Assembly (NCBI RefSeq): GCF_023703795.1
Contig: NZ_CP098518.1
Coordinates: 2,604,001 to 2,668,000 of the forward strand
DNA: 64,000 bases
Origin: Haloplanus sp. HW8-1
GTDB lineage: Archaea; Halobacteriota; Halobacteria; Halobacteriales; Haloferacaceae
Direction of reading: 5' to 3'
The notes under the pieces were generated by a model. It made no database searches. It was not told where the DNA came from and worked only from the letters and a program-made list of their open reading frames with translations. The position numbers were made by a program, and so were the translations under genes. Position 1 is the stretch's first letter, and each line of letters begins with the position of its first letter. Of this stretch, positions 4,765 through 31,906 are shown one piece after another.

Positions 4765-4846
4765 AGCCCCGAGAACTCCCGGCCGCCGCAAATGCTTTGC
4801 GGAGGGTGAAACCCGAATTTATGTCTCCCGCGACGGTAGCTCACCC

Positions 4847-5248
4847 ATGCGAACCTACGTACTGGGCACCGACACGGTCGATACGAGCGCGGCGCTGTGT
4901 GACTATCTCGACGGTCGGCTCGACGCCGCGGACACGGTCCACGCCGTCAACTCCCTGAGAGGTGGATCGCGGACGGACGCGGAGACGGTCCGCGACGGCG
5001 AGGACGCCCTCAACGTGGTCCAGTCCCGACTCGGCGCCCTGGCGTCGGTCGAAACCCACCAACTCGTCCGCGGCAACGCTCCCGACGAGGACCTCCTCGC
5101 ATACGCCGTCGACGTCGACGCGGACGAACTCGTCGTCGGCGTTCGAAAGCGAAACCCCACGGGGAAGGCCCTTTTCGGGAGTACGACCCAGTCGGTCCTG
5201 TTGGAGTCGTCGCGTCCCGTCGCCGTCGTCCCCCTCGACGCCGAGTGA
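4847..5248 (+). CDS. UspA-like universal stress protein
   Basis: 133 residues with a Usp fold: an N-terminal strand MRTYVLGTDT, a DELVVGVRKR strand, and the phosphate-loop-like end KALFGSTTQSVLLESSRPVAVVPL, matching the G-x-x-G-(9x)-G-S/T region of ATP-binding universal stress proteins. The loop has S-T-T in the usual G-S/T position, so nucleotide binding is likely but not certain. The start at 4847 is supported by an AT-rich box (CGAATTTATG) about 27 bases upstream. It is divergent from the PGF-CTERM gene. Confidence 0.8.
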   Translation: MRTYVLGTDTVDTSAALCDYLDGRLDAADTVHAVNSLRGGSRTDAETVRDGEDALNVVQSRLGALASVETHQLVRGNAPDEDLLAYAVDVDADELVVGVRKRNPTGKALFGSTTQSVLLESSRPVAVVPLDAE

Positions 5249-5296
5249 TCGCGCCGCGGCCGGACACCGGGGACCGACCCACGGGCCTCGGGAAGG

Positions 5297-6247
5297 CTAC
5301 CGGCCGCCGACTGCATCGTCGAGGAAGGCGATCTGGTGGGCGGCGGCCGCCTCGAAGGCGTCGCCGAGGGGGTCGACGTGACCGACGGGCAAGCGGAGGT
5401 AGGTCGCGTCGTCGATGTGGTCCGCGGTCGCCGCGACCGTCTCGGGCGGGACGAGGCCGTCCCTGCCGGCCGCGAGTAGGAAGGTCGGACAGGTGACGTC
5501 CGCGGCGTCGGTACACGGTCGGTACCGAAACAGCGAGAGCACACCGCGTGCAGGCGTCTCGTTGTGCCAGTCGCTCCCTCGGGGAACGAGATCGAGATAC
5601 GCTTTGCCGGCCGGCTCCCGCGGGAGGACGCCGAACTCGCCGGGACCGCCGACGACGGGGATCGACCGCGAGCGGCCGAGCGGGGCCCCGAGGCGGTCGC
5701 GCACGCCGGCGGCGACCGCCCGGGCGAGATACCGCGGCGTGCGCGAGCGAGCGAACGCACGCCCGTCGAGCATCGGCGAGACGGCGAGCGCCGCGGCGAC
5801 CCGCCGTTCGGCGGCCACGCGGACGACGTGCCCGCCGCCGAGACCGAATCCCCACAGGACGACCCGGCGGCGGTCCCCGTCGAGGGTCCGGACGTGGTCG
5901 ATCGCCGCGTTCCAGTCGGCCACCTGTGCGGCCGGGTCGACGAGATTTCGAGGGTCGCCGGTCTCCGTCCGGCGTCCCGTGACGCCCCGTGCTACGCTCT
6001 TTTCGACTCCTCCGTGCTCGAAGACGAAGGCGGCGTAGCCCGCGCCGGCGAACCGCTCCGCGTACCGCGGGTAGCCGAAGGTGGCTTCGGCGGCGACCGT
6101 CGGCCCGAGTACGATCACCGGCGGCGTCGACGGCCGATCCGGGCGGTAGAGCCGGCCGTGGCGTGTCCCGCCCTCGCTCTCGAACTCGACGGTAGTCGTC
6201 GCGAACGCGAATCGATCCGTGGCCGGCCGCGCACCCGTCGTCGTCAT
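5297..6247 (-). CDS. alpha/beta-hydrolase fold protein lacking the nucleophile serine
   Basis: 316 residues of the alpha/beta-hydrolase fold (dienelactone hydrolase / YcjY-like): PPVIVLGPTVAAE (oxyanion strand), the nucleophile elbow around residue 135, a lid region, the acid-bearing strand FLLAAGRDGLVPPE and the catalytic-histidine region VGHVDPL. The elbow reads W-G-F-G-L-G-G-G-H, so the expected Ser of G-x-S-x-G is Gly135 (codon 5843-5845). Hydrolysis by the usual mechanism is therefore unlikely; the protein may be a binding or scaffold homologue. It starts one base after the stop of the 113-residue gene upstream, so the two form an operon. Confidence 0.8.
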   Translation of the reverse strand: MTTTGARPATDRFAFATTTVEFESEGGTRHGRLYRPDRPSTPPVIVLGPTVAAEATFGYPRYAERFAGAGYAAFVFEHGGVEKSVARGVTGRRTETGDPRNLVDPAAQVADWNAAIDHVRTLDGDRRRVVLWGFGLGGGHVVRVAAERRVAAALAVSPMLDGRAFARSRTPRYLARAVAAGVRDRLGAPLGRSRSIPVVGGPGEFGVLPREPAGKAYLDLVPRGSDWHNETPARGVLSLFRYRPCTDAADVTCPTFLLAAGRDGLVPPETVAATADHIDDATYLRLPVGHVDPLGDAFEAAAAHQIAFLDDAVGGR

Positions 6248-6248
6248 C

Positions 6249-6590
6249 TCAGTCGAGATCCTCGTCGAGCGTTTCGAGGACGTTCGTCGAGAACTCGGTT
6301 TCGGAGATACGATACTGGAGTAGCCCCTCGAACCACTCGGCTTTCGCGTACCACCGGTTCATGACCTCGTCCTCGAACCGAAGGACAGTCGCCTCGACGC
6401 GCTTTGGGTCCCACTCGTCTTCTCTCGCCAGGTCGAGCAGGGCGTTCAGCAGCCGCCCCATCTCCATGTGGTTGACCTCTTCGCCGGGGTACGCCGTCAC
6501 GTACGACAGTTCGACGGGGCTGAGTGCGTCCACGTCGTACACGTCGATCCCGGAGTTTCGGAGTTCCTCCTCCAGTTCTGATTCGTCCAT
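6249..6590 (-). CDS. conserved acidic haloarchaeal protein, unknown function
   Basis: 113 residues, mostly helical and strongly acidic, beginning MDESELEEEL and ending LETLDEDLD. The frame is open for 230 codons further upstream, but that extension is basic and of low complexity; the ATG at 6590 has a good ribosome-binding sequence (GAGGAGAG) just upstream. It precedes the hydrolase gene by one base. I do not recognise a named family. Confidence 0.7.
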   Translation of the reverse strand: MDESELEEELRNSGIDVYDVDALSPVELSYVTAYPGEEVNHMEMGRLLNALLDLAREDEWDPKRVEATVLRFEDEVMNRWYAKAEWFEGLLQYRISETEFSTNVLETLDEDLD

Positions 6591-15666: not shown

Positions 15667-17103
15667 TCACGCGAACTCTCCCTGTTCCGCCATCTCGAAC
15701 TCAAATCGCGCCCCACCATCAGTTCCATCGGTTACGGACAGCTCCCAGCCATGTGCTTCCACGATTCGTTTTACGATGGTCAACCCGAAACCAGTACCAC
15801 CCTGTGCCGACGAATGCCCCGGTTCGAACACTTCGTCACGCTGTTCGACTGGAATTCCTGGTCCATCGTCTTCGACGTAGATTCCCGTTTCATCGTGAGA
15901 TCCGACACGGACGGCCACGTCTGGCCCACCGTGTTCAACGCCGTTCCGGAACAGGTTCTCGAAAACGTGCCGTAACCGCCCTGGATCGCCTTGGAAGGTC
16001 ATTTCGTCGACGATCTCGATGGTTGCGTCGTCCGTGTCTACTGTTGCCCAGCACTTCCCAACGAGGTCGGTCAAACTGATCGACTCGGTTTCACTTATCG
16101 TGTCGCCTTGGCGAGCAAGCGTCAACGTGTCCTCAACGATTGCCTCCATCCGGTCGATCGCCTGCAGGAGTGGATCGAGATGATCGCTTTCCGTTTGCTC
16201 TGCGAGGAGCGTTGCACGACCCTGTGCGACGTTGAGTGGGTTGCGCAAATCGTGAGAAATAACACTCGCAAACTCTTCGAGACGCTCGTTCTGCTGACGT
16301 AATTGTCGCTCCCGTTCGACACGTTCAGTCACGTTCCGGGTACTCCCAACGAGGCGAGTTACCTCACCATCGGAGACTACCGGCGCAAGCTTCGTTTGCC
16401 AGAAGTGTGCTCCTTCACCGACCCTGAGTTCCTCTTGGTACGAGATAGGTTGACCAGCGTTGACACAGCGGTGGTAGTTCGCTTCTAACTCGGTTCCTTG
16501 CTCCTCACCGAATATCTCTCGTGGTGTCTGGCCCTGCACTTCCTCGGTCGTAATGCCGGTTTGGTGCTCGTAAGAGGGACTGAGCCGTTCGAATTCGAAT
16601 CGGACAGTATCCTCTCCTTCTTCCACATTGATGAGAAAGATGGCATCCTCCACGTTGTTCAGGAGGGCCTCGTACTCTTCGGCCAGGACTTGGGATTCGA
16701 GCTCGTACTCCTTCCGTTCGGTGATATCCCGACTGCTAAGCAGAATCCCATCGATGATGTCGTCGTCGAGTCGATTCCGCATCGTGGCTTCGATCCAGCG
16801 CCACGAGCCGTCGGCGTGGCGGAAGCGGACTTCGACAGTCTCGGATTCGGATGGGTCCGAGAGAACGGTCTCCAGCGCGTCGGCGTTTCGTTCCTGATCC
16901 TCGGGATGGACGAACTCGTATCCTTCGTGACCGATCAATTCGTCGGGATCGTAGCCGAGAATCCGAGTGACGGCCGGACTGACGTAGGTTATCGTCCCGT
17001 CGGTATCGATAACTGTCGCGAGATCATTCACCCCCTCAACGAGCGTCCGATACCAGCCAGCCCCGCGTTTATGATTCTCTCGGAGAGTCGTATCGTCTTC
17101 CAT
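15667..17103 (-). CDS. PAS-PAS sensor histidine kinase
   Basis: 478 residues, no membrane segments. PAS1 is at about residues 18-140 (YRTLVEGVNDLATVIDTDG, ending ITERKEYE) and PAS2 at about 150-275 (LLNNVEDAIFLINVEE, ending NVTERVERE). Then HisKA with the H-box SVISHDLRNPLN, and HATPase with ENLFRNGVEHGG, EDDGPGIP and GTGFGLTIV. Both PAS domains look like cytosolic redox or small-molecule sensors of unknown ligand. PAS1 is clearly paralogous to the broken gene at 29512. The ATG at 17103 was chosen because PAS1 begins directly after it. Confidence 0.87.
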   Translation of the reverse strand: MEDDTTLRENHKRGAGWYRTLVEGVNDLATVIDTDGTITYVSPAVTRILGYDPDELIGHEGYEFVHPEDQERNADALETVLSDPSESETVEVRFRHADGSWRWIEATMRNRLDDDIIDGILLSSRDITERKEYELESQVLAEEYEALLNNVEDAIFLINVEEGEDTVRFEFERLSPSYEHQTGITTEEVQGQTPREIFGEEQGTELEANYHRCVNAGQPISYQEELRVGEGAHFWQTKLAPVVSDGEVTRLVGSTRNVTERVERERQLRQQNERLEEFASVISHDLRNPLNVAQGRATLLAEQTESDHLDPLLQAIDRMEAIVEDTLTLARQGDTISETESISLTDLVGKCWATVDTDDATIEIVDEMTFQGDPGRLRHVFENLFRNGVEHGGPDVAVRVGSHDETGIYVEDDGPGIPVEQRDEVFEPGHSSAQGGTGFGLTIVKRIVEAHGWELSVTDGTDGGARFEFEMAEQGEFA

Positions 17104-17390: not shown

Positions 17391-19838
17391 TTATCGCTGT
17401 AATCGGTCGAACAATCGCTCAAAAAGCGTTTGCTGCGCGTTTCGCAGGTGATATGAGAACGTCGATTGAGTCAGCAAGAGTGCGTCAGCGATTTCCGTGG
17501 CCGTGCTTTCTCGGGGCGATTTAAAGTACCCGCCGTACATCGCGGCTCGCAGGATCTGTTGTTGACGATCCGTAAGCTCGGTTTCGAAGATGTCTCCCAG
17601 CACCTGACCGAGTGCGTGTGCGTCTGACTTCGCAGGGGTAGTGTATTCACGTTTTGAGACCAACGTCGTTTCCGGGAACGACTCCTGCACGTGCGTCACA
17701 AGCGAACGAATGTCGCTACTGAGTGGCACTTCACAGACGATCTCAGCCCGACCGTCGGTTACCGTATCCGTCGTGACGACGGCACCGTCTGTAACGAGTG
17801 CTTGTGCCAAGGACTGCCGGGACAGCCCAATTTCGACGTCCCCGCCGGGAGGATCCTCAGTCTGTCGGAGCTGCCGCAACTGGGCAGCCCAGTCTGCACT
17901 CTCCGTGAAGTCCCTGAAGGCATCCAACGAAGCACCCCGGATAGACGCATAGTGGACGAGCATCTCATCGGAGGCCGGAATCGTGTCCCTGATGTCGATC
18001 GTACAATCGAGTCGTTCGGACGCCGAGACGAAAAACGACGCCGAGTCGGTGCTCTCGAACGTAAGCTCGGCCACTTCGTCGGCATGGAGAATGCGCTCCG
18101 TCGCAAGTGAGTGAAGCACTTGCCCAACCCTCTTACCGAACGTTGACAGGAGTGCCCGCTCGCGGTCCCGGAACGCCTTTCCACGGTCCGTATACAAGAC
18201 GAGCAGCCCGTAGACGCGGCCTCTGTGCGCGAGCGGAACGATAGCTCCACCCTGGAACCCTTGCTCCAGTGTGTATGTTCGCCATCGCTCGAACCGCGAG
18301 TCCGACTGATTCCTCCGAACTGCCTGTACCTCGGCCGTTTCAACAGCGACCGCTGCCGGAGCGACCTCAGTCCGCGATTGTATCGGACGAGTTACGGACT
18401 CGTTGGCAGCGACAGCCCCCGACTCCTCCTCGAGATCCGATTCGGTCAGTTCCGTTTCCAGGGTGTACTCGTTAATCCGTGCGTACTGGTATTCGCGCGT
18501 GTCCGTCAGTAACTCACAGATGGGTCGTTCGATCTCCTCGTCAGCAGTTGCGCTATTGAGTAGCTCGCTGACCGGCTGGAACGTCTCGGTGAGTTGTTCG
18601 AGCCGTTTGGGGACGGTCACGTCTTCCAGTGCGACGATGATTTGTTCGATCGATCCGTCTTCACGCTTGACGGGAGCAACGTTGCTCGATAGCCAGCGTT
18701 CGGAGCCGTCCGGACCTGTGATCCCGTGGATGAACCCCTGGATAGCCTCGCCGGTTCTGCGGACATGCGTGACGGGATGGTTTTCGCGTGGAATCGGATT
18801 ACCCGCCTCGTCCCAGATATCCCAGTCCGGGTGATCGTACGCCACGCCCTCTATCCTGCTTCGGGACAGGCCAAGCAACGCTTCTGCACGGGCGTTTGCG
18901 CGAGCAATCTCTCCCTCGCCGGTCAGGAAAACGATGCCGATGGGCGCCGTTTCCAAGATGTGATCCAGGTCCCGTTCGGCTACCTTCGAGTCGGTGATTT
19001 CGGTGAAGACGATGATGACGCCATCGTCGCTTGGGTGGACGCTAGCTTCGACCCACTGTTCCTTTTCCGTGTTGTATCGCTCGAAGGATGTCGATGACCC
19101 CGTGTCGAGAGTCGTCCGGATTTTCTCTTCGGCAATGGTGTCAGCCGCTTCGGGAAAGACGTCCCAGACGTACTCACCACGCAGTTCCTCGTTGTCCCGT
19201 CCGAGAAGCTGCTCGGCCTGCTGATTCACGTATCTATACGTGAGGTCGCAATCAAGCACGGCAACGCCGTCCGACACGCGCTTCAGACTGTCTATCTCCC
19301 GTCGATCGACTGCGGATGTGATGAGTGAGATGGTCGTTTCGGCCAGTTCTCGTTCGCTCGGGAGCCACGCCTCCCGGCCCGTGCCCGGTCGCCGGTCCGT
19401 GGAGACGACTGTCATCGAGACGGTTGTTCCGACGTGTGTGTGAGCCTTCGCTGTCAGGGCGTCGGGTGTCGGGTGGAACCCGTCGGTTTCGAACACGTCG
19501 TCTCCCACCCGAATCTTGGCCTCGATCGCTTGCGAGTCCCGGAACCACTGGGGGAGCTCCGAGACGTACGTCCGAACACTGTCGTCGATATCCTTATCGA
19601 GGGCAACGAAGAGTTCACTCGCCCGTTCGAGCGCGTCGAACGCATCCGTCCACTCATGGAGTTTTCTTTCGGCCGCCTCTCCGAACTCGGGGTTCTCGTC
19701 CGCCCCGTTGTCTCCGTCCGGTGTGTGCGCGTCTGACTCGGAAACGTCGCGGGACGCATCGGAATCGGCTTCGACGGAGTCGGCGCGTTTCGGCCGCTCA
19801 CCTCCCCCACCGTCCTCCTGCCGATCCTGTCTGTCCAT
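17391..19838 (-). CDS. bacterio-opsin-activator-type regulator (PAS-PAS-GAF-HTH_10)
   Basis: 815 residues. An acidic N-terminus and a GAF-like part (residues about 65-190) are followed by two PAS domains (KRVSDGVAVLDCDLTYRYVN at about 200 and the one containing ETAPIGIVFLTGEGE at about 300), a GAF domain (about 440-600), a Bat-type middle domain (about 610-745) and the C-terminal HTH_10 (LTDRQQQILRAAMYGGYF, then STATEIADALLLTQSTFSYHL). It is a one-component transcription regulator resembling Bat, which controls bacterio-opsin and light or oxygen responses in Halobacterium. The targets are not known. A TATA box at 19861-19871 fixes the start; a GTG directly before this ATG is an alternative. 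Confidence 0.85.
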   Translation of the reverse strand: MDRQDRQEDGGGGERPKRADSVEADSDASRDVSESDAHTPDGDNGADENPEFGEAAERKLHEWTDAFDALERASELFVALDKDIDDSVRTYVSELPQWFRDSQAIEAKIRVGDDVFETDGFHPTPDALTAKAHTHVGTTVSMTVVSTDRRPGTGREAWLPSERELAETTISLITSAVDRREIDSLKRVSDGVAVLDCDLTYRYVNQQAEQLLGRDNEELRGEYVWDVFPEAADTIAEEKIRTTLDTGSSTSFERYNTEKEQWVEASVHPSDDGVIIVFTEITDSKVAERDLDHILETAPIGIVFLTGEGEIARANARAEALLGLSRSRIEGVAYDHPDWDIWDEAGNPIPRENHPVTHVRRTGEAIQGFIHGITGPDGSERWLSSNVAPVKREDGSIEQIIVALEDVTVPKRLEQLTETFQPVSELLNSATADEEIERPICELLTDTREYQYARINEYTLETELTESDLEEESGAVAANESVTRPIQSRTEVAPAAVAVETAEVQAVRRNQSDSRFERWRTYTLEQGFQGGAIVPLAHRGRVYGLLVLYTDRGKAFRDRERALLSTFGKRVGQVLHSLATERILHADEVAELTFESTDSASFFVSASERLDCTIDIRDTIPASDEMLVHYASIRGASLDAFRDFTESADWAAQLRQLRQTEDPPGGDVEIGLSRQSLAQALVTDGAVVTTDTVTDGRAEIVCEVPLSSDIRSLVTHVQESFPETTLVSKREYTTPAKSDAHALGQVLGDIFETELTDRQQQILRAAMYGGYFKSPRESTATEIADALLLTQSTFSYHLRNAQQTLFERLFDRLQR

Positions 19839-19860
19839 CACACATCAAACGTCTTCACCC

Positions 19861-20539: not shown

Positions 20540-22762
20540 ATGTTAGAACAGGTGAAACTCGATCGGTTCGACTTGCGGCCGAAACTCATCCTGGCGTTCG
20601 TGCTCGTGGCGTTGCTGGTTGGTGCAACGGGGCTGGTGGGATACCAAGCGGTCGGTGCCGTCGACGGCGAGGCCCACGTCATCTCCGAGGACGCCGACAA
20701 GATCGACGCGTCGATGGAGATGTTGGTCGCCGTCGAGGAACAGCAGGTGGCGGTTCAAGCGGCCCTACTCGGTGAAGACGGTGCCAGAGCCGACTTCGAG
20801 GAGGCCAATTCCCACTTCGAAGAGTGGGCAGGGCGGATGGAGGGTAGCGACCTGAGCGAGGACGAACAGCAGGCATTCGCCGATTTGCAGTCCAGACACC
20901 GGGAGTACACGGGCGTCGCTCAGGAGGTGTTCGACGCGGCAGAGGCCGGTGAGATGACGAGTGCTAGGCAGAACCTGGCGGAACTGGATCCGATACTGAC
21001 CGACATGCGCGAGGACGCACACACGCTCGAAGAGCTCGCTGCCGAGGATAAAGACGCAGCAGTCGCGTCGGCAGACAGCACCACGGTGACGGTCCAGCGG
21101 TTGCTTCTCGGACTGACCGCCGGGGCGTTCGTCCTGGCTATCGCTGTCGGGCTGTTCGTCGCGGGACGAATCATCCCTCCGATCACCAGGTTGGAAGAGA
21201 CGGCACAGGCCGTCAGTGCAGGTAACCTCGACAACGACCTCGACGGCCACGTCGAAGACGACGAACTCGGCCGCATGATCGAGGCGTTCACCGAGATGCA
21301 GACGAACCTCCGGGGCGTATTCTCGCAGATCGGAACCGCCAGCCGTGGCTTGCGACAGGGCGACCTCGGGTGGGAGTTCGAGTCCAGCTATCCCGGTCGG
21401 TACGGCGAAACCGTCGCCGATCTCGAAGCGGGTGCCGACGAACTCGCGGAGAGTTTCGACGAGATTCGAGGTGTGAGTGACGATCTCCAGCAGGGAGTTC
21501 TGGACGGAGACGTTGATGCGAACCGCCCCGGCCAGTACGGCGAAGTGCTCACCGATCTCGCGACCGGGACGACCCAGTTATCGGAGAGCTTCGCACAGAT
21601 ATCGGCCGTGAGTCGGGGTCTGAACGACGGGCAGCTCGATCAGGACGTCGACACGGACTACCCTGGAACGTTTGGATCGACATTGAGTGACCTCGAGAAC
21701 GGGATCGAGCAGTTGGATACGAGCGTCGCACGTGTCCAGTCCATCGCGGACGACGTCGCAACGTCGAGTCAGAGCGTGGCGAGCAGTTCGGAAGAGATCG
21801 AGCAGGCCAGCAAGCAGGTCGCGGAGTCCGTCGAAGAAATCTCGCGCGGTGCGGACACACAGAGCGAGAACCTCGACGAGGTGGCCGGCGAAATGAACGA
21901 CATGTCGGCGACCGTCGAGGAGATCGCCTCATCGGCCGAGGAGGTGGCTGCAACCGCCAGCACGGCCGTCGAGCGCGGCGAGACAGGCCGACAGTACGCC
22001 TCGGAGGCGACCGAGGAGATCCAGTCGATCGAAACGCGGGCCGACGAAGCGGCCACACAGGTCGAGGCGCTCGACGAGAAGATGGACCGGATCGGCGAGG
22101 TCGTCGAGATGATCGCCGACATCGCCGAACAGACGAACATGCTGGCATTGAACGCCTCGATCGAGGCCGCGAGGGCTGGAGAAGCGGGTGAAGGGTTCGG
22201 TGTCGTGGCAGACGAAATAAAGTCCCTGGCAGGGGAGGCGGCCGAGGCGACTACCGACATCGAACAGCGCATCGAAGAAGTCCAGGCGACGACGGACGAG
22301 ACCGTCGAGGGCATACAACAGATGAGCGACCGCGTCGAACGCGGGTCCGACACGATCGAGGACGCCATCGAGATGTTCGACGAAATCGCCAACACCGTCC
22401 AGGAGGCCGAAAGCGGCATCCGGGAAATCAGCGACGCCACCGACGACCAGGCGGCCTCGTCGGAGGAGGTGGTTTCGATGGTCGACCAAGTCTCCAGCGT
22501 CAGCCAGCAGACGGCGGCCGAGGCGAGCAACGTCTCCGCCGCAACCGAAGAGCAGACCGCCTCCCTGTCCGAGGCCTCGGAGAACGTTCAACGACTGTCC
22601 ACGCTCGCTGAGGAACTGCACGATCAAGTGTCGGATTTCGACACCGGATCAGGCGTCGGTGCAGGAGCCGAGGCGACAGCGGGATCGGCGGCCGCAGCCG
22701 ACGGCGGACACCACATCGACGAGACCGATGGTCGATCGACGGAGTACGATGGAGAAACGTGA
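20540..22762 (+). CDS. methyl-accepting chemotaxis transducer (Htr)
   Basis: 740 residues. TM1 is at about 17-38; the extracytoplasmic sensor domain of about 130 residues is helical (four-helix-bundle type). TM2 ([22 protein letters not shown], about 190-212) is followed by a HAMP domain. Next come three imperfect repeats of about 54 residues ([72 protein letters not shown]), then the signalling coiled coil with the hairpin tip [19 protein letters not shown]. It directs CheA activity through CheW. The CheW-like remnant directly downstream is in keeping with this. The ligand is unknown. Confidence 0.9.
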
Positions 22763-22766
22763 CCCA

Positions 22767-23090
22767 ATGAGCACACAGCACGTTCCCGTGTCCACACTCG
22801 TGGGAGAGCAGTACGCTATCGGCATCGGGTCCGTCTCCGAAATTGTCGGCTGTTCGGAGGACTGGGACGTTGGTTCCGGATTCCTCCCCTCACGTTGGAG
22901 CGGGGATGATGAGCATCCTCGATTGCGAAACGGGCTGACGTTCCGGCTGGTAACGGACGGACTTCGAATCTCGGGAGTCGACGCCGAATCCGTCGAGGCG
23001 GCCGGTGAGCGGATAGGAAACGGGGTCCGCACCGGGGACGGGTACCCGTCTGGATGGATCCGGACCCGACCTCGGCTGAAACATGAGTGA
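22767..23090 (+). pseudogene. probable CheW remnant, internally altered and truncated
   Basis: 107 codons. The start (TLVGEQYAIGIGSVSEIV) resembles the first CheW strands (LGGEEYGIDIxxVxEIV). A later stretch (LVTDGLRISGVDAESVEAA, then IGNGV) resembles the CheW segment with VxEVLRI. The middle and the end (GYPSGWIRTRPRLKHE) do not fit, so the CheW fold cannot be complete. It starts 4 bases after the transducer stop and overlaps the next gene by 8 bases. The identification rests on two short stretches and on position next to a transducer; it could also be an unrelated small gene. Confidence 0.4.
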
Positions 23091-25677
23091 GGCGAACGTC
23101 CTGATCGAGACCGGAGAGGGGGTAGAGGTTCTCCTCGTCGATGACGAATCCGATTTCGCTGATCTCGCTGCGACGTTCCTCGAGCGAGCGGACGACCAGT
23201 TCACCGTCGAGACGGCGAGTAGCGCCGACGCCGGGTTGGCGAGGATCGACGATCGGCGGCCCGACTGTATCGTCTCGGACTACAATATGCCCGGCATGAA
23301 CGGGTTCGAGTTCTTGGAAGCGATCCGAGAAAGGTACCCCGACCTTCCGTTCATCCTGTTTACTGGCAAGGGCAGCGAGGCCATCGCCAGCGACGCCATC
23401 TCGGCTGGCGTTACCGACTATCTCCAGAAGAGTCCCGGTACCGAACAGTACGAACTCCTGGCCAACCGGATCCGCAATGCCGTCCGAACGCGATGCGAGG
23501 CACAGCGGGCCGACAGACAGCAACAACTGATGCGGCTGACGGAGTTCGCCGGCGATACCGGTGGGTGGGAACTGGATAGAGGGAGTGACAGGATCCTGCT
23601 GACGGCTGCTACCCGGCGAGCAATCGGCCGTCCCGACCAAGCCGAGATTCCTCTGGAGGAAGCGATTGCACTATTCCACCCGGATGACCGCGAAGACGTC
23701 CGGCAGACGCTCTCCAAGGCCTTCGAAGCGGGCGAGAAACTGGAACGAAGGTGGCGACTGCAGCCAAGTGACCGCGACGAGCGTCTCATAGACATGACGA
23801 TTACTCCGGTCGTCGAATCGGGGGGAAGGGTAACGAAGCTCCGTGGTGCTGGCCACGATATCACCGACCGCGAGGAGCGGCGACAGGAACTCGAAACGTA
23901 CGAGACGATCATCGAGGCGCTGACCGATGCGGTGTACGTGCTCGACGAGGAGGGACGATTCACCTACGTCAACGACGAGTTCGTCGAGTTGGTTGGCTAC
24001 GACCGGGAAACGATTCTCGAAAGCACGCCGTCGCTCATCAAGGACGCAGATGCCATCGAACGGGGCGAAAACCACCTGCGACGGTTGTTATCGAGTGATG
24101 GCCCGGAGACGATTCCTTTCGAGGTGACATTGCAACCGCGCGAGGGTGACCCAATCGTCTGTAAGGATCTCATGGGCGTTCTTCCCTACGAGGGCGACCA
24201 GTTCCGAGGATCGGTCGGCACGCTTCGGGACGTTACCTCGGCCAAAGAGCGCGAGCAACGGCTGGAACAACAAAACGACCTGTTCAAAAAGGCCCAAGAT
24301 GTCGCCGATGTCGGCGCCTGGAGTTACGACGTACAGACCGGCGAGGCGTTTTTGACGGACAAAGCGTACGAGATTCACGGCCTTTCGCCGGACGAAGAAC
24401 TGAATCCCGCGACGAGCCTCGGTTTCTACCACCCCGACGATCGACCGGCAATCCGCGACGCATTCGACCGAGCAGTAGAGACGGGCGAATCCTACGACCT
24501 CGAACTCCGACTGATCGACACAGCGGACGACCTCCGCTGGGTGCGCACCCGTGGCGATGCCGAACTCGAAGATGGCAACGTCGTTTGCGTTCGCGGCACC
24601 CTGCAAGATATTACCGAACGCAAACGACGGGAACGGGCGCTCGAAGAACAGACCGAGGAACTGGACACACTGACCACCGAACTCGAGGAACAGTACCGGT
24701 ATCTGTTCGAGGAAGCACCGCTCATGGCGGTCGTTACGCGTGCCGAGGACGGGAGGCCGATCATCGAGGACTGTAACGACCTGTTCGTCGATACGCTGGA
24801 CTACGAGAGGTCAGAACTCGTCGGAGCGGAACTCGAACGGTTCTACACCGCCGAGTCCCAGCGCGAACTGCTGGACGAAGGCGGCTACGAGCGTGCACTG
24901 GGTGGCGAGTTCGTCCGCGAGAACAGAGGCTTGGTGGCCGCTGACGGGGAGACAGTCGAGACACTCTTCCGGGCGGTTCCTCGGAAAAATACACCGGAGG
25001 GGTCGCGCGGGACGCTCGCGTTCTACATTGATATCAGTGAGCGTAAACGATTGGAACGGGAACGGGACCGTCTGGAGGAGTTCACGAGCATCGTCAGCCA
25101 CGACCTCCGGAATCCGCTCACAGTGGCGGAGGGATACACCGAACTCGCACGAGAAGATTGCGATAGCGACCATCTGGCTCGGGTAGACGACGCAATCGAC
25201 CGGAGCCAAGCACTCATCGACGACCTGCTGACACTGGCGCGTGAGGGGAAAAAAGTGACCGGAAGCGAACCGGTGGAACTTAGCGACGTGGCCAAGCGCA
25301 GTTGGGAAACCGTCGATACGGACCAGGCGACGCTGGAAACTGACGCGACACACGTCATCGAAGCCGACAAGAGTCGACTCCAGCAACTCCTTGAGAACTT
25401 CTATCGGAACGCGGTCGAACACGGGGGCGATGAGGTAACCGTTCACGTCGGTGACCTGGACGGTGGCTTCTACATCGCGGATACGGGGTCTGGGATTCCC
25501 GAGAGCGACCGGGACGAGATTTTCGAAGCCGGCTATTCGACCGCAGACCACGGAACCGGGTTTGGCCTGCGGATCGTAGAGCAGATAGCTGAGGCGCACG
25601 GTTGGGACATCCGCGTCGTCGACGGCGAGCGGTGTGGCGCACGCTTCGAGATTACCGGCATCGTGACCGCACGCTGA
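23083..25677 (+). CDS. receiver-PAS(x4) hybrid histidine kinase
   Basis: 864 residues, soluble. The N-terminal receiver domain (EVLLVDDESDF; phosphoacceptor Asp66 in VSDYNMPG; Lys in YLQKSPG) is followed by four PAS/PAC-type domains (about 145-265, 268-385, 400-520, 535-650). Then HisKA (SIVSHDLRNPLT) and HATPase (ENFYRNAVEHGG, ADTGSGIP, GTGFGLRIV). It receives a phosphoryl group and is also a kinase, so it may act as a relay node; it probably lies in one unit with the transducer upstream. The stimulus is unknown. Confidence 0.88.
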   Translation: MSEANVLIETGEGVEVLLVDDESDFADLAATFLERADDQFTVETASSADAGLARIDDRRPDCIVSDYNMPGMNGFEFLEAIRERYPDLPFILFTGKGSEAIASDAISAGVTDYLQKSPGTEQYELLANRIRNAVRTRCEAQRADRQQQLMRLTEFAGDTGGWELDRGSDRILLTAATRRAIGRPDQAEIPLEEAIALFHPDDREDVRQTLSKAFEAGEKLERRWRLQPSDRDERLIDMTITPVVESGGRVTKLRGAGHDITDREERRQELETYETIIEALTDAVYVLDEEGRFTYVNDEFVELVGYDRETILESTPSLIKDADAIERGENHLRRLLSSDGPETIPFEVTLQPREGDPIVCKDLMGVLPYEGDQFRGSVGTLRDVTSAKEREQRLEQQNDLFKKAQDVADVGAWSYDVQTGEAFLTDKAYEIHGLSPDEELNPATSLGFYHPDDRPAIRDAFDRAVETGESYDLELRLIDTADDLRWVRTRGDAELEDGNVVCVRGTLQDITERKRRERALEEQTEELDTLTTELEEQYRYLFEEAPLMAVVTRAEDGRPIIEDCNDLFVDTLDYERSELVGAELERFYTAESQRELLDEGGYERALGGEFVRENRGLVAADGETVETLFRAVPRKNTPEGSRGTLAFYIDISERKRLERERDRLEEFTSIVSHDLRNPLTVAEGYTELAREDCDSDHLARVDDAIDRSQALIDDLLTLAREGKKVTGSEPVELSDVAKRSWETVDTDQATLETDATHVIEADKSRLQQLLENFYRNAVEHGGDEVTVHVGDLDGGFYIADTGSGIPESDRDEIFEAGYSTADHGTGFGLRIVEQIAEAHGWDIRVVDGERCGARFEITGIVTAR

Positions 25678-25770: not shown

Positions 25771-27288
25771 ATGTCCGACGATTCCGGCAGTACGACGACC
25801 GAGGAAATCGAGCTGGTAGCGTCGGGTATCCCCGAGTTGGACGGACTACTCAACGGCGGGTTGGTCCGGGGCCGGACGTATCTCGTCCAGGGCGTCTCGG
25901 GAACGGGAAAGTCACTGCTCGGCCAGCACTTCCTGCGGGCAGGACTCGATCGAGACGAGACAGTCGTCTACATTCACGGCGAAGAGTCCAGACACGATAT
26001 TCTCGTTAACGCCGCACGGTTGGGGGTCGATATCCAGGATGCCGAGTTCCTCGACATCGGGCCCGGAACGGACTTTTTCGCCGAGGACAAGTCGTACAAC
26101 TTGGTCGAGGCGACCGAGGTCGAATCCGAGCGGTTCACGCAGGATATCAAACAGGTGATCGAGGACGTCGACCCGACCCGGATTCTCATCGATCCGATCA
26201 CACAGCTCCAGTACGTGGAACGGGACGAATACCAGTACCGGAAGCGGCTGCAATCGCTCATACGATTCCTCCGGGATCGGCAGGTGACGACAGTTGCAAC
26301 GCGAACACTCAACAGGCAAAGTACTCCCGAGACCACGCACGACGATTTCGAATCGCTCAGTGACGGCGTCATCAACCTGTATCTCGACGAGCACGAACGC
26401 CGGGTCGCGGTTCCGAAACACCGTGGTCTCGGACAGGTAGACGGCACTCATGGGCTCGAAATCCGCGAAGACGGGATCGAAGTCTACCCACAAACCATCC
26501 CGGAACACGACAACCGAACGTTCGATCTGGAACTCATCCCAACCGGACACGATGCCCTCAACGATATCCTCGGTGGTGGGATCGAACGCGGAACCGTCTC
26601 GTTTATCAGCGGTCCGACCGGGATCGGCAAATCGACCACTGGCGCACAGATCCTCTCGGGTATCGTCGAACAGGGCGGTACGGCACTCGGATACCTGTTC
26701 GAAGAGTCTACCGACCAGTTCGTCCACCGCTCGGAAACTCTCGGACTCCCGATCTCGGAGATGCAAGCGCAGGGATCGATGCAGCTGACAGAAACCGAAC
26801 CACTCGTGCGTTCGGCCGAGGAACTCAGTCAGCATATCCTTGACCAGGCCGACGAGCACGCACCGGATGCGGTGTTCATTGACGGGCTTTCGGGCTACAA
26901 GATCTCGCTTCAAGGCGACGACCAGCGACTCGTTCGCCGGCTGCACGGTCTCACCCGAGTACTCAAGAACCGCGGGATTGCAGTCATCATCACGGACGAG
27001 GCGGACCGGCTCACCGGCATCCCGGAAGCGACAAGTACGAACACCAGCTACATCGCCGATAACATCGTCTTTCTCTCGTACGTGGAAGTCGACGGCGAGC
27101 TGGACCGTGCGATCGGAGTCGTCAAAAAGCGACTCGGGGATTTCGACAGCCGGTTCCACCGGTTCTCCATCGAATCCGACACAGGACTCGTGATCGAAGG
27201 ACCGTTCGATAACGTACGGGGGATCATGCAGGGACGTTCAACGCACCGTGTTTCAGACGGCCGCCACCAGCCAACCGATCACTCATGA
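25771..27288 (+). CDS. double-domain KaiC/RAD55-like ATPase
   Basis: 505 residues with two KaiC (RecA-type) domains. Domain 1 (about 10-240) has Walker A GVSGTGKS, an acidic pair in HGEES and Walker B-like RILIDPI. Domain 2 (about 250-490) has Walker A GPTGIGKST, FEES and AVFIDGL. The order and spacing match KaiC CI-CII, but no KaiA or KaiB is present, as is usual in archaea. The acidic Glu pair needed for catalysis is present in both domains. It overlaps the LOV kinase gene by 4 bases (ATGA), so the two are made together; a phosphorylation- or ATP-state switch read by or feeding the kinase is possible (inference). Confidence 0.88.
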   Translation: MSDDSGSTTTEEIELVASGIPELDGLLNGGLVRGRTYLVQGVSGTGKSLLGQHFLRAGLDRDETVVYIHGEESRHDILVNAARLGVDIQDAEFLDIGPGTDFFAEDKSYNLVEATEVESERFTQDIKQVIEDVDPTRILIDPITQLQYVERDEYQYRKRLQSLIRFLRDRQVTTVATRTLNRQSTPETTHDDFESLSDGVINLYLDEHERRVAVPKHRGLGQVDGTHGLEIREDGIEVYPQTIPEHDNRTFDLELIPTGHDALNDILGGGIERGTVSFISGPTGIGKSTTGAQILSGIVEQGGTALGYLFEESTDQFVHRSETLGLPISEMQAQGSMQLTETEPLVRSAEELSQHILDQADEHAPDAVFIDGLSGYKISLQGDDQRLVRRLHGLTRVLKNRGIAVIITDEADRLTGIPEATSTNTSYIADNIVFLSYVEVDGELDRAIGVVKKRLGDFDSRFHRFSIESDTGLVIEGPFDNVRGIMQGRSTHRVSDGRHQPTDHS

Positions 27289-29507
27289 CCGGCCGGTCGA
27301 GCCACGAAGCGACTGAGCGACCCACGATACAACTCCTCGTACACGGAGACAACGACCGGGACGCCCTCGAAGTATCGCTCCGCGAACGGTACGACGTTAT
27401 CGACGGCGAGACGCTCCACCCTGCCGATTGTTATGTCGTTGATGAGCAGATGGTGCCAACGTATCGAGACGTATTGCGAGCACACAAAACGGAGGTCCAC
27501 CCCACCTTCATCCCAGTACTGTTGATTCAGAAGGAAGGGTCGCGGGGAACTGTCCCACTGCCGTCCGAGCAGAACGGCGACGGCCCACCGCTTATCGACG
27601 AAGTGGTGCCAGCTCCCGTCAACCGGAAGACCCTGTTTCGCCGGGTGGGGAATTTGTTGGCCCGGCGAGAGCAGTCGGTGGAGTTGTCCGAACGTTACGA
27701 AGACGTCCAGATTCGATTTCAGCGGCTGTTCGAATCGACGAACGACGCTCTCTTCGTGGTTACCCCAACCGGTGATGAGATCATCGAGTGTAATCCGGCC
27801 GCGTGTGATCTCGTGGGATATCCGCGCGATGAGTTGCTCTCGTGCTCCCCGACTGAGACGATCTACGCCAACGACCGCGAACGGTTCCAGTCCTTTCTTC
27901 GAGACGTACAGGAGACGGGTCAGGGGTCGACCGACGACCTCACGTGTCAAACAAACGAAGGCCAAAAACGACAGTTGGAGGTGTCGGCTGCGGCACTCGA
28001 GGACTCCGAACCGTCCTCGATAATCCTCTCCGCACGCGACGTTACGGAACGAACGGAGTACGCACGCGAGCTCGAACTGAAGTCCCGGGCGATGGACGAA
28101 GCCCCGGTCGGGATCTCGATTACCGATCCCGATAAAGAGGACAACCCGATGATCTACGTGAACGAGGGGTTCGAGACGCTAACAGGGTACTCCGACTCGG
28201 AAGCGATCGGTCGCAACTGTCGGATGCTTCAGGGGGAGGCGACGCGGGAGCACCCCGTTGCCAAGATGCGGCAGGCGATTGATGCAGCCGAACCGGTCTC
28301 CGTGGAACTCCGGAACTACCGTAAGGACGGGAGCCAGTTCTGGGACCGTGTCAGTATCGCCCCGGTGAGAGACCAGGACGGAAACGTAACGAACTACGTC
28401 GGATTCCAGGAGGATATCACCGAACGCAAAGAGCGCGAGATGGACTTGCAGCTGTTCAAAAACGCTGTCGAGAACGCGGGACAGTCGATATTCATCACCG
28501 ACAGCGACGGGATTATTGAGTACGTGAATCCGAAATTCGAGGCCCGGTCAGGCTATACTCGTGAGGAAGCCGTCGGTCGAACGCCCCGTATTCTCAAGTC
28601 AGGCAAACAGGAGGGCGAGTTCTACGATCGGATGTGGCAGACGATTCTCGCAGGCGACCAGTGGGATGCCCATCTCATCAATCGCCGCAAAAATGGAGAG
28701 TTATACCACGTCGACCAGACGATTTCGCCCATAGCGAACGACGAAGGAGAGGTCACGCACTTCGTCGCGATCGAAGCCGACGTGACGAACCGGCGGTTGC
28801 GCAAACAGAAACTCGAGGTCCTCAATCGTGTGTTGCGCCACAACCTCCGGAATGGAATGAACGTAATCGAAGGCCATGCGGCAATGCTTCGGAAGGCGCT
28901 ACACGACGAAGAACTCCGAGCAGACGTGAGAGCGATCGAAGATCGATCGGCGGCACTGTCGAGTCTGGGTGACAAAAGCGCGACGGTGCGCTCCCTGTTC
29001 GACAACGAAGCAGCTACTCAGACGGCCTGCGACGTGACTCGGCTGCTGACCGAGGTCGTCGACGAACTTTCCGACGAGTACCCCGATGCGATGCTCACGG
29101 TCAGTACGCCCGATTCCCTCCACGCACGGGCCGACGACCGGCTGAAAACAGCACTTGCAGAGCTCATAGAAAACGCAATCGTCCACAACGACCAGTCCAC
29201 GCCGGAGGTTACGGTTACGACCGGATCACCGAGCGAAGATCGAACCGGCGAGTGGATCGAACTCGTAGTCGCCGATAACGGACCCGGAATTCCGGATCAG
29301 GAACAGGAAACGATCGAAAGCGGAGAGGAAACATCCCTGCAACACGGTACCGGAATCGGACTGTGGATCGTCTACTGGACAATCTCTTTGTACGGGGGTG
29401 AGATCTCGATCGAAGAAAACGCACCGCGTGGAACGCACGTTGTACTGAGTCTCCCACAGGGGTCGGTCGACTCCTCGCCCCGGATCGCGCCCGCCGATAC
29501 TCACTGA
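27285..29507 (+). CDS. PAS-LOV-PAS sensor histidine kinase
   Basis: 740 residues. Residues 14-128 look like a receiver-like domain without a clear phosphoacceptor. PAS1 is at about 143-262. The second PAS (about 268-385) is a LOV domain with the photoactive motif GRNCRMLQG, Cys312, the flavin-contact patterns NYRKDG and FWDRVSIAP, and YVGFQED. PAS3 is at about 388-505. The H-box is VLRHNLRNG with His519, and HATPase follows (ENAIVHND, DNGPGIP, GTGIGLWIV). A flavin-cysteinyl photoadduct is expected from these residues, so blue-light control of the kinase is likely but untested. It is coupled to the KaiC-like gene. Confidence 0.88.
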   Translation: MTGRSSHEATERPTIQLLVHGDNDRDALEVSLRERYDVIDGETLHPADCYVVDEQMVPTYRDVLRAHKTEVHPTFIPVLLIQKEGSRGTVPLPSEQNGDGPPLIDEVVPAPVNRKTLFRRVGNLLARREQSVELSERYEDVQIRFQRLFESTNDALFVVTPTGDEIIECNPAACDLVGYPRDELLSCSPTETIYANDRERFQSFLRDVQETGQGSTDDLTCQTNEGQKRQLEVSAAALEDSEPSSIILSARDVTERTEYARELELKSRAMDEAPVGISITDPDKEDNPMIYVNEGFETLTGYSDSEAIGRNCRMLQGEATREHPVAKMRQAIDAAEPVSVELRNYRKDGSQFWDRVSIAPVRDQDGNVTNYVGFQEDITERKEREMDLQLFKNAVENAGQSIFITDSDGIIEYVNPKFEARSGYTREEAVGRTPRILKSGKQEGEFYDRMWQTILAGDQWDAHLINRRKNGELYHVDQTISPIANDEGEVTHFVAIEADVTNRRLRKQKLEVLNRVLRHNLRNGMNVIEGHAAMLRKALHDEELRADVRAIEDRSAALSSLGDKSATVRSLFDNEAATQTACDVTRLLTEVVDELSDEYPDAMLTVSTPDSLHARADDRLKTALAELIENAIVHNDQSTPEVTVTTGSPSEDRTGEWIELVVADNGPGIPDQEQETIESGEETSLQHGTGIGLWIVYWTISLYGGEISIEENAPRGTHVVLSLPQGSVDSSPRIAPADTH

Positions 29508-29511
29508 GCCA

Positions 29512-29871
29512 ATGACGGAACGAAGGACTTCGGAAAAGGAGAGCGAGAAACGAACCCACCGGTATCGGGCGCTCGTTGAAGCGTCGCACGACGTCACCAC
29601 CACCATCGACACGGACGGAACGATGACGTACGTGAGCCCCCCGCCGTCACACGAGTTCTCGACGACGACTCCGAGGAATTAGTCGGGCACACTGGATACG
29701 GATACGTCCATCCCGACGACCGAGAGCGAAACGAAGACGTGGTCGAAGCCGTGCTGTCGGCCCAGGACGAACCCCAGACCGTCGAAGTCAGATTCGAACA
29801 CGCCGACGGGTCGTGGTGCTGGATCGAAGCCACGATGCGGAATCGACTCGAAGACGATGTCATCTTTCTAC
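29512..29871 (+). pseudogene. PAS sensor gene fragment, frameshifted and truncated by an insertion element
   Basis: Starts MTERRTSEKE, then PAS1 (YRALVEASHDVTTTIDTDG). At a C6 run (29637-29642) the frame breaks; adding one C (or removing two) restores VTRVLDDDSEELVGHTGYG and ADGSWCWIEATMRNRLEDDVI. This is a close paralogue of PAS1 of the kinase at 15667-17103. It ends where the IS1341-type element begins. The sequence right of the element does not continue the gene, so the rest was lost. It is 4 bases downstream of the LOV kinase stop. Confidence 0.85.
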
Positions 29872-29999
29872 AAGCGGGAAACCCCGCCGTTTACCGCGGG
29901 GAGGAACGCGACACGGTGAGAAACAACCGCCGTTCGGTGGCCGACCGACTCCCCACACCAAACGCAACCTATATGAATGTAAGGTTCTACATATGAAGT

Positions 30000-31213
30000 A
30001 TGGCGGAGGTACGTCGCACGGTCGTCGTCAAACTCGATATGGACGACAGCGACGCGACTCTCCTCCACGGAACCGTCAAGCAGTACCTGTGGGCGTGCAA
30101 CTACGTCGTCCAAGACGCGTGGCAGGACGACTACAAGCCCACCTCGAAAACCAAACTCCACGACCGGACGTACTCCGACGTTCGCGAACAGACACGGCTT
30201 CAAGCCAACCTCGTTCAATCCGCACGCAACAAAGCCGCCGAAGCCATCAAGGGCGTCGTCGCCCGCTGGCAGAACGGCAAGAAGGCGTCACAACCACACT
30301 TCACGACCCCATCCGTCAGATACGACAAACGGAGCGCGACGTTCTACGACGACCGCGTATCCCTCTCCACGGTGAACGGACGTATCGAAGCCGAATACGT
30401 CTTTCCACCAGAGGGAGACAACCCGCACACGAAGTTCCTCCACGACGACGACTACAAGGTCACGGGTGCGACGCTCCAGTACCGCGACGCGACGGACACC
30501 TTTTTCTCCACATCGGAACAAAGGCCGATGTGGAGTCCGAGATACCGGACGAAGGCGACGCCGAGAACAGCACAGTCCTCGGCGTGGACCTCGGTATCGA
30601 ACAGATTGCCGTCACGTCAACCGGAATGTTCTGGAGCGGCGACTACCTCAATCACCGCCGTCGGGAGTACGAGCGGGTGCGTGGCGACCTGCAACGGACA
30701 GGTACGGAATCAGCCCATCGAACTATCGAACGGATGGGCGACCGAGAAACACGGTGGGTCGAAGATTACCTGCACCGGATCTCGAAAGCCATCGTCAAAG
30801 AAGCCGTCGCGCACGACTGCGACCGGATAGCCTTCGAGGAGTTGACCGACATCCGCGACCGGATGCCGGGCGCCAAGAAGTTCCATACGTGGGCATTCCA
30901 CCGTCTGTACGACTACACGGCGTACAAGGCCGAAGCGGAGGGCATCAAAGCCATGCAGGTAGACCCAGCGTACACGTCAAAACGTTGCTCGAAGTGCGGG
31001 ACGACGCTGGACGAGAATCGTCCGTCACAAGCGAGGTTCTGTTGCCAGAAGTGCGGGTACGAGGTTAACGCGGACTACAACGCGGCGAAGAATATCGGAT
31101 TTCGGCTACTCCGTGCGGAGCAAAAGTCTCCGCATGGAGGGGCGACACGTCACCTCGCCCTGAAGTCGGGGACGCTGAACGTGAATGGCGGCTACTCGCC
31201 TGCCACCCAGTAG
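30000..31213 (+). pseudogene. IS1341-type TnpB with a one-base frameshift
   Basis: RNA-guided DNA nuclease family (TnpB). Frame 1 runs from MAEVRRTVVVK to about residue 168 (ATDTFF). At a T5 run (30501-30505) one missing T puts the rest in another frame; with T6 the protein continues LHIGTKADVESE and has 404 residues, the normal length. RuvC residues are intact in the repaired frame (GVDLGIEQ, IAFEELTDI, NADYNAAKN), as is the zinc finger (CSKCG and CCQKCG). It may be inactive, be rescued by slippage, or reflect a base-calling error. Confidence 0.8.
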
Positions 31214-31404: not shown

Positions 31405-31659
31405 ATGGCCACCGCTACAGAGCCGCCGGCCGGCGTCGAGTTCGTCCACGAGGAGGACGGGCGAGTGACGGCCCGGCACGTCGAATCCGGCGTTGCATCG
31501 TTCGGCGACAGCGAGACCGATGCACTCCGCCAGCTCGCCGACGCTCTTGACAGTCACTTCGGCGCTGGGGAGTCCATCGACGATCCCGAGACTTGGCTCG
31601 CCGAGGAAGGGATCGACGCCGAGATCGGCGAGGCCGGCTCGCCACCTTGGCTCGAATAG
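31405..31659 (+). CDS. hicB: HicB-family antitoxin
   Basis: 84 residues with the HicB partial RNase H-like fold: VEFVHEEDGRVTARHVESGVASFGDSETDALRQLADAL. It is acidic and has a C-terminal GSPPWLE. HicB binds and blocks HicA and usually regulates the operon. It precedes hicA by one base, so the pair is cotranscribed. No separate DNA-binding domain is visible in this short form. Confidence 0.8.
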   Translation: MATATEPPAGVEFVHEEDGRVTARHVESGVASFGDSETDALRQLADALDSHFGAGESIDDPETWLAEEGIDAEIGEAGSPPWLE

Positions 31660-31660
31660 C

Positions 31661-31906
31661 GTGGTTCGGACGACGTTCTCCTCGCGGGAAATTATCAAAG
31701 CGCTCACCAAGCACGGCTTCGTTCCGGTCGGCGGGAAGGGGAGCCACACAACGCTCCGCTACGAGAACGCCGACACCGGCGAGGTTCGGACGGTGACGGT
31801 TCCGAAAGGTGACCCAATTCCGGTCGGGACGCTTCAGGACATCGCCGATCAGGCCGGCGCAAACGACTTCCATGAGTTTTGCCGGTGGGTTGACCGGACA
31901 TGTTGA
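31661..31906 (+). CDS. hicA: HicA-family toxin
   Basis: 81 residues from a GTG. The dsRBD-like HicA fold is visible: FSSREIIKALTKHGFVPVGGKGSHTTLRY, where the catalytic His of GSH is present, followed by VTVPKGDPIPVGTLQDIADQAG. HicA cleaves mRNA during stress when HicB is degraded. It sits one base after hicB. It may help keep the neighbouring mobile DNA in the genome (inference). Confidence 0.85.
   Translation: MVRTTFSSREIIKALTKHGFVPVGGKGSHTTLRYENADTGEVRTVTVPKGDPIPVGTLQDIADQAGANDFHEFCRWVDRTC

Follow-up and report, generated by a model that had tools for sequence, protein, structure and literature searches.

A probable KaiC-kinase signalling unit with a putative blue-light sensor in the haloarchaeon Haloplanus sp. 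HW8-1

Archaeal KaiC-like ATPases have been described as signal-transduction hubs (Makarova, Galperin and Koonin 2017, as represented by the citing paper PMC5847659), and KaiC hubs and KaiC-kinase operons are already known in outline (PMC5847659, PMC5520375, PMC3941300). The locus discussed here lies in a window of 64,000 nucleotides from Haloplanus sp. HW8-1 (NZ_CP098518.1, positions 2,604,001 to 2,668,000), in which a gene for a double-domain KaiC-like ATPase overlaps one for a histidine kinase with a LOV (light-oxygen-voltage) domain. As far as the citing papers convey, it resembles the described hubs in that archaeal KaiC-family ATPases are tied to genes for sensors and two-component proteins. 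Judged from those citing papers only, it is set apart by four features: PSR, the name given here to a receiver-fold domain of about 130 amino acids that opens the KaiC-linked kinases, the near one-to-one linkage of PSR with double KaiC, the repeated insertion of LOV, and a taxis cassette. None of these four was reported in the literature searched, the coverage of which excluded the text of Makarova 2017.

Other described systems show partial likeness. Haloferax volcanii cirC, whose product is a KaiC homologue as large as a double-domain protein (52.7 kDa), adjoins a gene for a sensor kinase, 'fixL', but by description that kinase is annotated as an oxygen sensor, with neither PSR nor LOV described (PMC3941300). 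The kaiBC-histidine kinase operon of Rhodobacter sphaeroides similarly joins KaiC to a PAS-type kinase without KaiA, but it has KaiB, and no PSR-LOV kinase is described for it (PMC5520375, PMC6627678). The pseudo-receivers of KaiA and CikA, and KaiA3, are likewise receiver-fold domains in partners of KaiC systems, and the model of PSR, like the KaiA pseudo-receiver, has no helix alpha4 (PMC12632262, PMC11372060). PSR differs from the KaiA and CikA domains in keeping the Asp, in its N-terminal position on a kinase and in having no KaiA-type helical domain, and the CikA pseudo-receiver binds KaiB, which is missing in this genome (PMC12632262, PMC11372060). The question of which inputs act on archaeal KaiC proteins is addressed here by a defined partner domain and a defined stimulus, blue light. 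With these, a probable orthologue whose LOV domain has been characterised photochemically and cultured hosts (Haloarcula, Halorientalis) in hand, the question becomes testable with purified proteins and deletions.

The receiver-fold domain and its linkage to KaiC

PSR was overlooked in an earlier note on this DNA, which had drawn attention to the gene pair, and it proved to be the conserved element that ties the partner to KaiC. It occupies residues 1-140 of the kinase (27285..27704; all features lie on the plus strand unless marked otherwise), where no Pfam family matched at E<=1, the receiver profile PF00072 included. An AlphaFold2 model built from an alignment of 78 relatives (pLDDT 89.6) is nevertheless predicted to have a receiver fold, with VIA Z scores of 14.9 to PleD and 14.8 to NtrX and a root-mean-square deviation of about 2.1 over 116-119 residues. 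Helices alpha2 and alpha4 are not visible in it. Asp53, the phospho-acceptor, hardly varies in the alignment of relatives; the rest of the receiver catalytic set is incomplete in the window copy, where His20 and Gly21 take the place of the acidic pair and Ala110 that of the Lys, as located by the ends of the modelled strands. The KaiA and CikA pseudo-receivers were not among the top structural matches listed for PSR, an observation that carries no weight.

Linkage was assessed around most double-KaiC genes listed by one order-wide sequence search, chosen regardless of their neighbours. A PSR gene adjoins KaiC in 115 of 122 haloarchaeal loci, directly downstream in 103, divergently in 11 and upstream in 1, and 95 of these 115 partners are kinases. 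When downstream starts are taken as those nearest to the KaiC stop, PSR begins within 25 bp of it in 83 of 103 cases, with a 4-bp overlap in 19. Across 59 whole genomes, co-occurrence of double KaiC and PSR was counted as 25/1/4/29 (Fisher p 2e-11, without a correction for relatedness); PSR lies within 250 bp of 28 of the 34 KaiCs in these genomes, and 34 of the 44 PSR matches lie near a double KaiC. Receiver-type or PSR genes also follow KaiC in bacterial relatives (cyanobacteria, Halanaerobium, Aliifodinibius, Massilia, Halothiobacillus). The earlier note had proposed conservation across haloarchaea as a check on the pair, and the pair does survive across genera, as paralogues within the same genome and on four megaplasmids, those of Haloarcula pelagica, Haloarcula sp. 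GH36, Haloarcula halophila and Halorientalis marina. The gene linkage is conserved well beyond chance.

The partners that are not kinases include PSR alone and PSR-GAF-BAT-HTH_10 (Bat-type) regulators. Five loci of one KaiC clade (L136, L137, L123, L141 and L145) have non-kinase partners, that of L136 being a PSR-GAF-BAT-HTH_10 protein of the bacterio-opsin activator type, through which output might go straight to transcription. In three cyanobacterial loci (L189, L190 and L201; 37-38% identical), three genes in a row encode KaiC, a single receiver-like protein and a kinase of the receiver type. A Haloplanus plasmid locus (L208, 2424-4886) carries HalX (response-regulator type) and HalOD1 genes directly upstream of KaiC, and at L125 (4254-4910) a gene for a receiver-like protein lies ahead of KaiC.

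PSR also diverges together with KaiC. Pairwise distances of PSR and KaiC gave a rank correlation of 0.65-0.80, compared with 0.10-0.15 for the kinase core and KaiC in the same proteins, yet PSR and the kinase core are equally diverged. Inside the two KaiC clades the contrast was smaller (0.53-0.55 for PSR, 0.22-0.25 for the core), and in both of these clades PSR is found with kinases of several H-box types. A specific co-evolution of PSR with the CI domain was considered and rejected, as raw correlations of 0.75-0.80 for CI and 0.31-0.36 for CII were mostly gone within clades; a preference for CI over CII is not claimed because the signal rests on one deep split.

The KaiC-like ATPase, the kinase and the LOV sensor

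The ATPase of the window (25771..27288) has 505 amino acids and belongs to the double-domain KaiC ATPase family, with two PF06745 domains (E 1.9e-66) that cover residues of approximately 16-242 (CI) and 247-480 (CII). Both domains are complete and keep their Glu pairs, as the earlier note had read them. The Walker A motifs are at residues 41-48 and 281-288 and the Glu pairs at 71-72 and 311-312, the columns of which hold Glu in 112, 121, 109 and 123 of 123 aligned relatives. The nearest of the solved KaiC relatives align with residues 13-498 (E 3e-50). At the positions of clock S431/T432 the window protein has Ser426-Tyr427, keeping Ser and replacing Thr by Tyr. Haloarchaeal double KaiCs have Ser in 121/123 and Tyr in 117/123 at these positions, and because the combination is near-universal in the family, double KaiC may still autophosphorylate. 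Tyr is known as the second phosphorylation site in some KaiC3, and archaeal KaiC3 proteins autophosphorylate (PMC5520375).

The kinase gene (27285..29507) starts within the KaiC stop, at an ATGA of four bases (27285..27288) that leaves both open reading frames intact, just as had been described. The same overlap occurs in the plasmid copies of Halorientalis marina and Haloarcula halophila, despite differing annotated kinase starts. The product is a PSR-PAS-LOV-PAS histidine kinase of 740 amino acids, in which Pfam detects three PAS domains, the middle one being LOV, and HATPase_c (E 8e-19). Its core (28800..29474) comprises an H-box of the RHNLRN type with His519 and HATPase_c, and the N, G1 and G2 boxes are present.

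The LOV domain (residues 275-381, 28107..28427) matches Bacillus subtilis YtvA (E ~1e-31). The adduct-forming Cys of the GXNCRXLQ motif is retained as Cys312 in GRNCRMLQG (codon 28218..28220), in agreement with the earlier note, NCRM standing in place of NCRF. Its statement that the flavin contacts are kept holds in part, for Asn344 and Gln375 (YtvA N94 and Q123), but not at YtvA Asn104, where the window copy has Asp354 (codon 28344..28346) and nearly all other KaiC-linked LOV domains keep Asn. A photocycle is still expected, because the N104D variant of YtvA is stable and photoactive, with a recovery about twofold faster (PMC4161478).

The first archaeal LOV domain proven to be photoactive, ALovD-1, binds flavin mononucleotide (FMN), bleaches at 446 nm, forms a 390-nm adduct and cycles slowly (PMC12202551). 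Its homologue is a Halonotius kinase of 726 amino acids in which LOV is the middle one of three PAS domains, and ALovD-1 carries an unusual Tyr30/Tyr36/Arg44/Tyr48 set (PMC12202551). One orthologue of the window kinase (L060) has the same set, the same LOV position and 726 amino acids counted from Met, and it very probably contains ALovD-1, as a member of the same gene family; KaiC goes unmentioned in the ALovD-1 paper (PMC12202551). The earlier idea of a blue-light-sensing kinase made together with a KaiC-type protein is credible.

LOV was found in 16 of the 95 KaiC-linked kinases, and most KaiC partners have other PAS domains or none. The genome-wide background is lower, 73 LOV motifs to 1397 HATPases (binomial p 3e-5, with relatedness left out of account). 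Placed as a label on the KaiC tree (17 rows, including the second-gene case L052), LOV changes 9 times, at least 7 of which are forced by well supported branches, where shuffled labels average 16; one LOV clade unites the window KaiC with its four nearest relatives. The proposition that LOV itself is the conserved partner of KaiC was rejected, the constant element being the PSR-kinase and LOV a variable one. As read from these sequences, LOV is an interchangeable insert in a widespread two-gene KaiC module, and because the sensor is interchangeable, light is one candidate among several inputs that archaeal KaiC could receive.

A co-translated signalling unit and alternative readings

At the level of sequence it is established that the genes adjoin, that a PSR domain is present and is inherited along with KaiC, that the sensor is interchangeable and that the active-site residues are there. 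The explanation preferred, with a probability of roughly 60%, is that KaiC and the PSR-LOV-kinase are translated together and work as a single signalling unit, in which a blue-light input has been added to a general KaiC-kinase module of archaea. PSR would dock on the KaiC hexamer, and blue light would produce the Cys312-FMN adduct; the PAS-LOV-PAS relay may then shift the balance between autokinase and phosphatase activity at His519. Through PSR, the kinase could be coupled in either direction to the ATP or phosphorylation state of KaiC, for which Ser426 and Tyr427 are candidate sites. Output would pass to a response regulator encoded elsewhere and perhaps, as the plasmid cassettes suggest, to the taxis machinery, and different lineages would plug different inputs, light among them, into the same module. 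A bolder proposal, tentative and on balance doubtful, is that PSR is a dedicated, receiver-like KaiC-docking domain of a haloarchaeal system free of KaiA and KaiB, in which exchangeable sensors, LOV included, act directly on the state of the KaiC ring, making it a light-gated switch for swimming.

Several observations weigh against a single unit. Seven loci have KaiC without PSR nearby, and two genomes (G024 and G047) have PSR with no KaiC nearby. Within the RHNLRN kinase type alone, the core tracks KaiC at 0.64, compared with 0.75 for PSR; a low correlation of the kinase core is accordingly rejected as a general rule, and since the core tracks KaiC within one type, part of the contrast between PSR and core stems from exchange of kinase types. 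The correlation of PSR with KaiC could also mean co-inheritance without contact. Lastly, the wider cassette around the window pair is partly decayed, in its CheW and last-kinase genes, so that the chromosomal copy may be losing function.

A rival is mere co-regulation without any contact, the LOV kinase serving some distant regulator as an ordinary two-component sensor and KaiC being a hub that acts elsewhere. Kinases are many in haloarchaea (64 HATPase matches in this genome alone), and their regulators are often encoded elsewhere. Co-regulation does not explain PSR, however, which is found almost exclusively beside KaiC and varies with it across kinase types, and this alternative is considered unlikely. 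That the two genes are chance or hitch-hiking neighbours is barely credible: gene shuffling is frequent on haloarchaeal plasmids, but the 115 of 122 loci, spread over several families and including paralogues in one genome, and the bacterial relatives already contradict it. The earlier note had suggested a daily or time module, and a light-entrained circadian or diurnal timer would have KaiC oscillating and the LOV kinase setting its phase. Conserved catalytic residues of the autokinase type, the Ser-Tyr positions, the autophosphorylation of archaeal KaiC3 (PMC5520375) and the light-dependent expression of the Haloferax volcanii cir genes, cirC beside 'fixL' among them (PMC3941300), are in keeping with a timer. 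It is not borne out, as KaiB was found neither in this genome nor at or above the family cut-off in any of 195 genomes, in a search where only one control genome exceeded that cut-off and Synechococcus elongatus was listed first among the controls that gave a match, and the window KaiC scores 161.8 bits against a cut-off of 546.25 for the clock-KaiC equivalog (TIGR02655). LOV is also missing from most KaiC partners and the plasmid-borne orthologues accompany taxis genes, and the circadian reading was demoted to a minor, improbable rival.

Taxis is a likely use of the unit, because the megaplasmid orthologues sit with a globin-coupled transducer, a methyl-accepting chemotaxis protein (MCP), CheW and two more kinases. 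All four plasmids share one order: DICT and globin-coupled MCP genes on one strand, then MCP, CheW, PAS kinase, KaiC, PSR-LOV kinase and PAS kinase. This company of taxis receptors points to behaviour rather than timekeeping. A stronger version, in which the KaiC/LOV-kinase pair is subordinate to the MCP-CheW-globin cluster and tunes swimming to light and oxygen, is a genuine possibility short of an even chance; it is compatible with the co-translated unit and a rival only as to its main job. It draws on the common plasmid order, on a block largely kept in a genome with another family code (G215, locus L059; globin sensor, MCP, KaiC, LOV-kinase and last kinase kept, CheW and middle kinase decayed), and on motility roles within the KaiC family, as ArlH is part of the archaellum motor and CirA affects motility (PMC13286277). 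Against it, MCP and CheW are both absent around the pair in two close orthologues (L058 and L060), and a recognisable CheW has been lost from the window copy.

Other copies in the genome and neighbouring genes

The Haloplanus genome holds six distinct LOV-motif loci (seven sites, one being an exact plasmid duplicate), three of which are in KaiC-linked kinases. It has three distinct intact double KaiCs, all adjoining a PSR-LOV kinase. The second, on contig C3, is 89% identical to the window KaiC and present in two exact copies; compared with Haloarcula pelagica, the C3 copy is 97% identical in KaiC and 96% in the kinase. The third (C1:1131813-1133249) is 34% identical, and its PSR-LOV kinase comes after a decayed PSR gene.

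A fourth PSR kinase (C1:2566138-2567655), the only one without an intact KaiC, is divergent beside a KaiC remnant. At this locus (L212, G000:C1:2562000-2571000, 4139-6291) KaiC has a large internal deletion and the Cys of the PSR-LOV kinase is replaced (GRNWGF). Another locus from this genus (L147) carries the divergent KaiC/PSR-kinase pair intact. This single case suggests a joint loss of KaiC and the photoactive Cys.

On C3 (200 kb), at least 12,170 bp from 32831 and from 130283 are 100% identical, 97,452 bp apart, with the KaiC/LOV-kinase cassette included, which reflects either a recent duplication or an assembly effect. A plain concatemer was rejected, as the stretches at the start, at 97453 and at 194905 are mutually unlike.

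The chromosomal copy in the window keeps the MCP, a REC-PAS kinase, KaiC and the LOV kinase. The MCP gene (20540..22762; HAMP and MCPsignal) opens the cassette and is followed, at the plasmid CheW position, by a probable decayed CheW gene (22659..23090) with a weak tblastn match to plasmid CheW (E 0.004) and no Pfam match. The third gene (23083..25677) encodes a REC-PAS-PAS-PAS-HisKA-HATPase kinase, the middle cassette kinase being a PAS kinase on the plasmids and REC-PAS in the window. A remnant of the last PAS-kinase (29512..29864), with a frame change near 29640, ends the cassette and is truncated beside an IS605-type element.

Upstream of the cassette, the minus strand carries a 73% identical relative of the last PAS-kinase (15685-17103) and, beside the MCP gene, a PAS-PAS-GAF-BAT-HTH_10 regulator (17391-19844), where the plasmid cassettes have their DICT and globin-sensor genes. 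Beside the broken last kinase, 29813-31213 encodes an IS605-type TnpB transposase (OrfB_IS605, Cas12f1-like TNB), and at 31405-31906 a DUF7387 protein gene precedes a HicA-type toxin gene, a probable HicAB-like pair.

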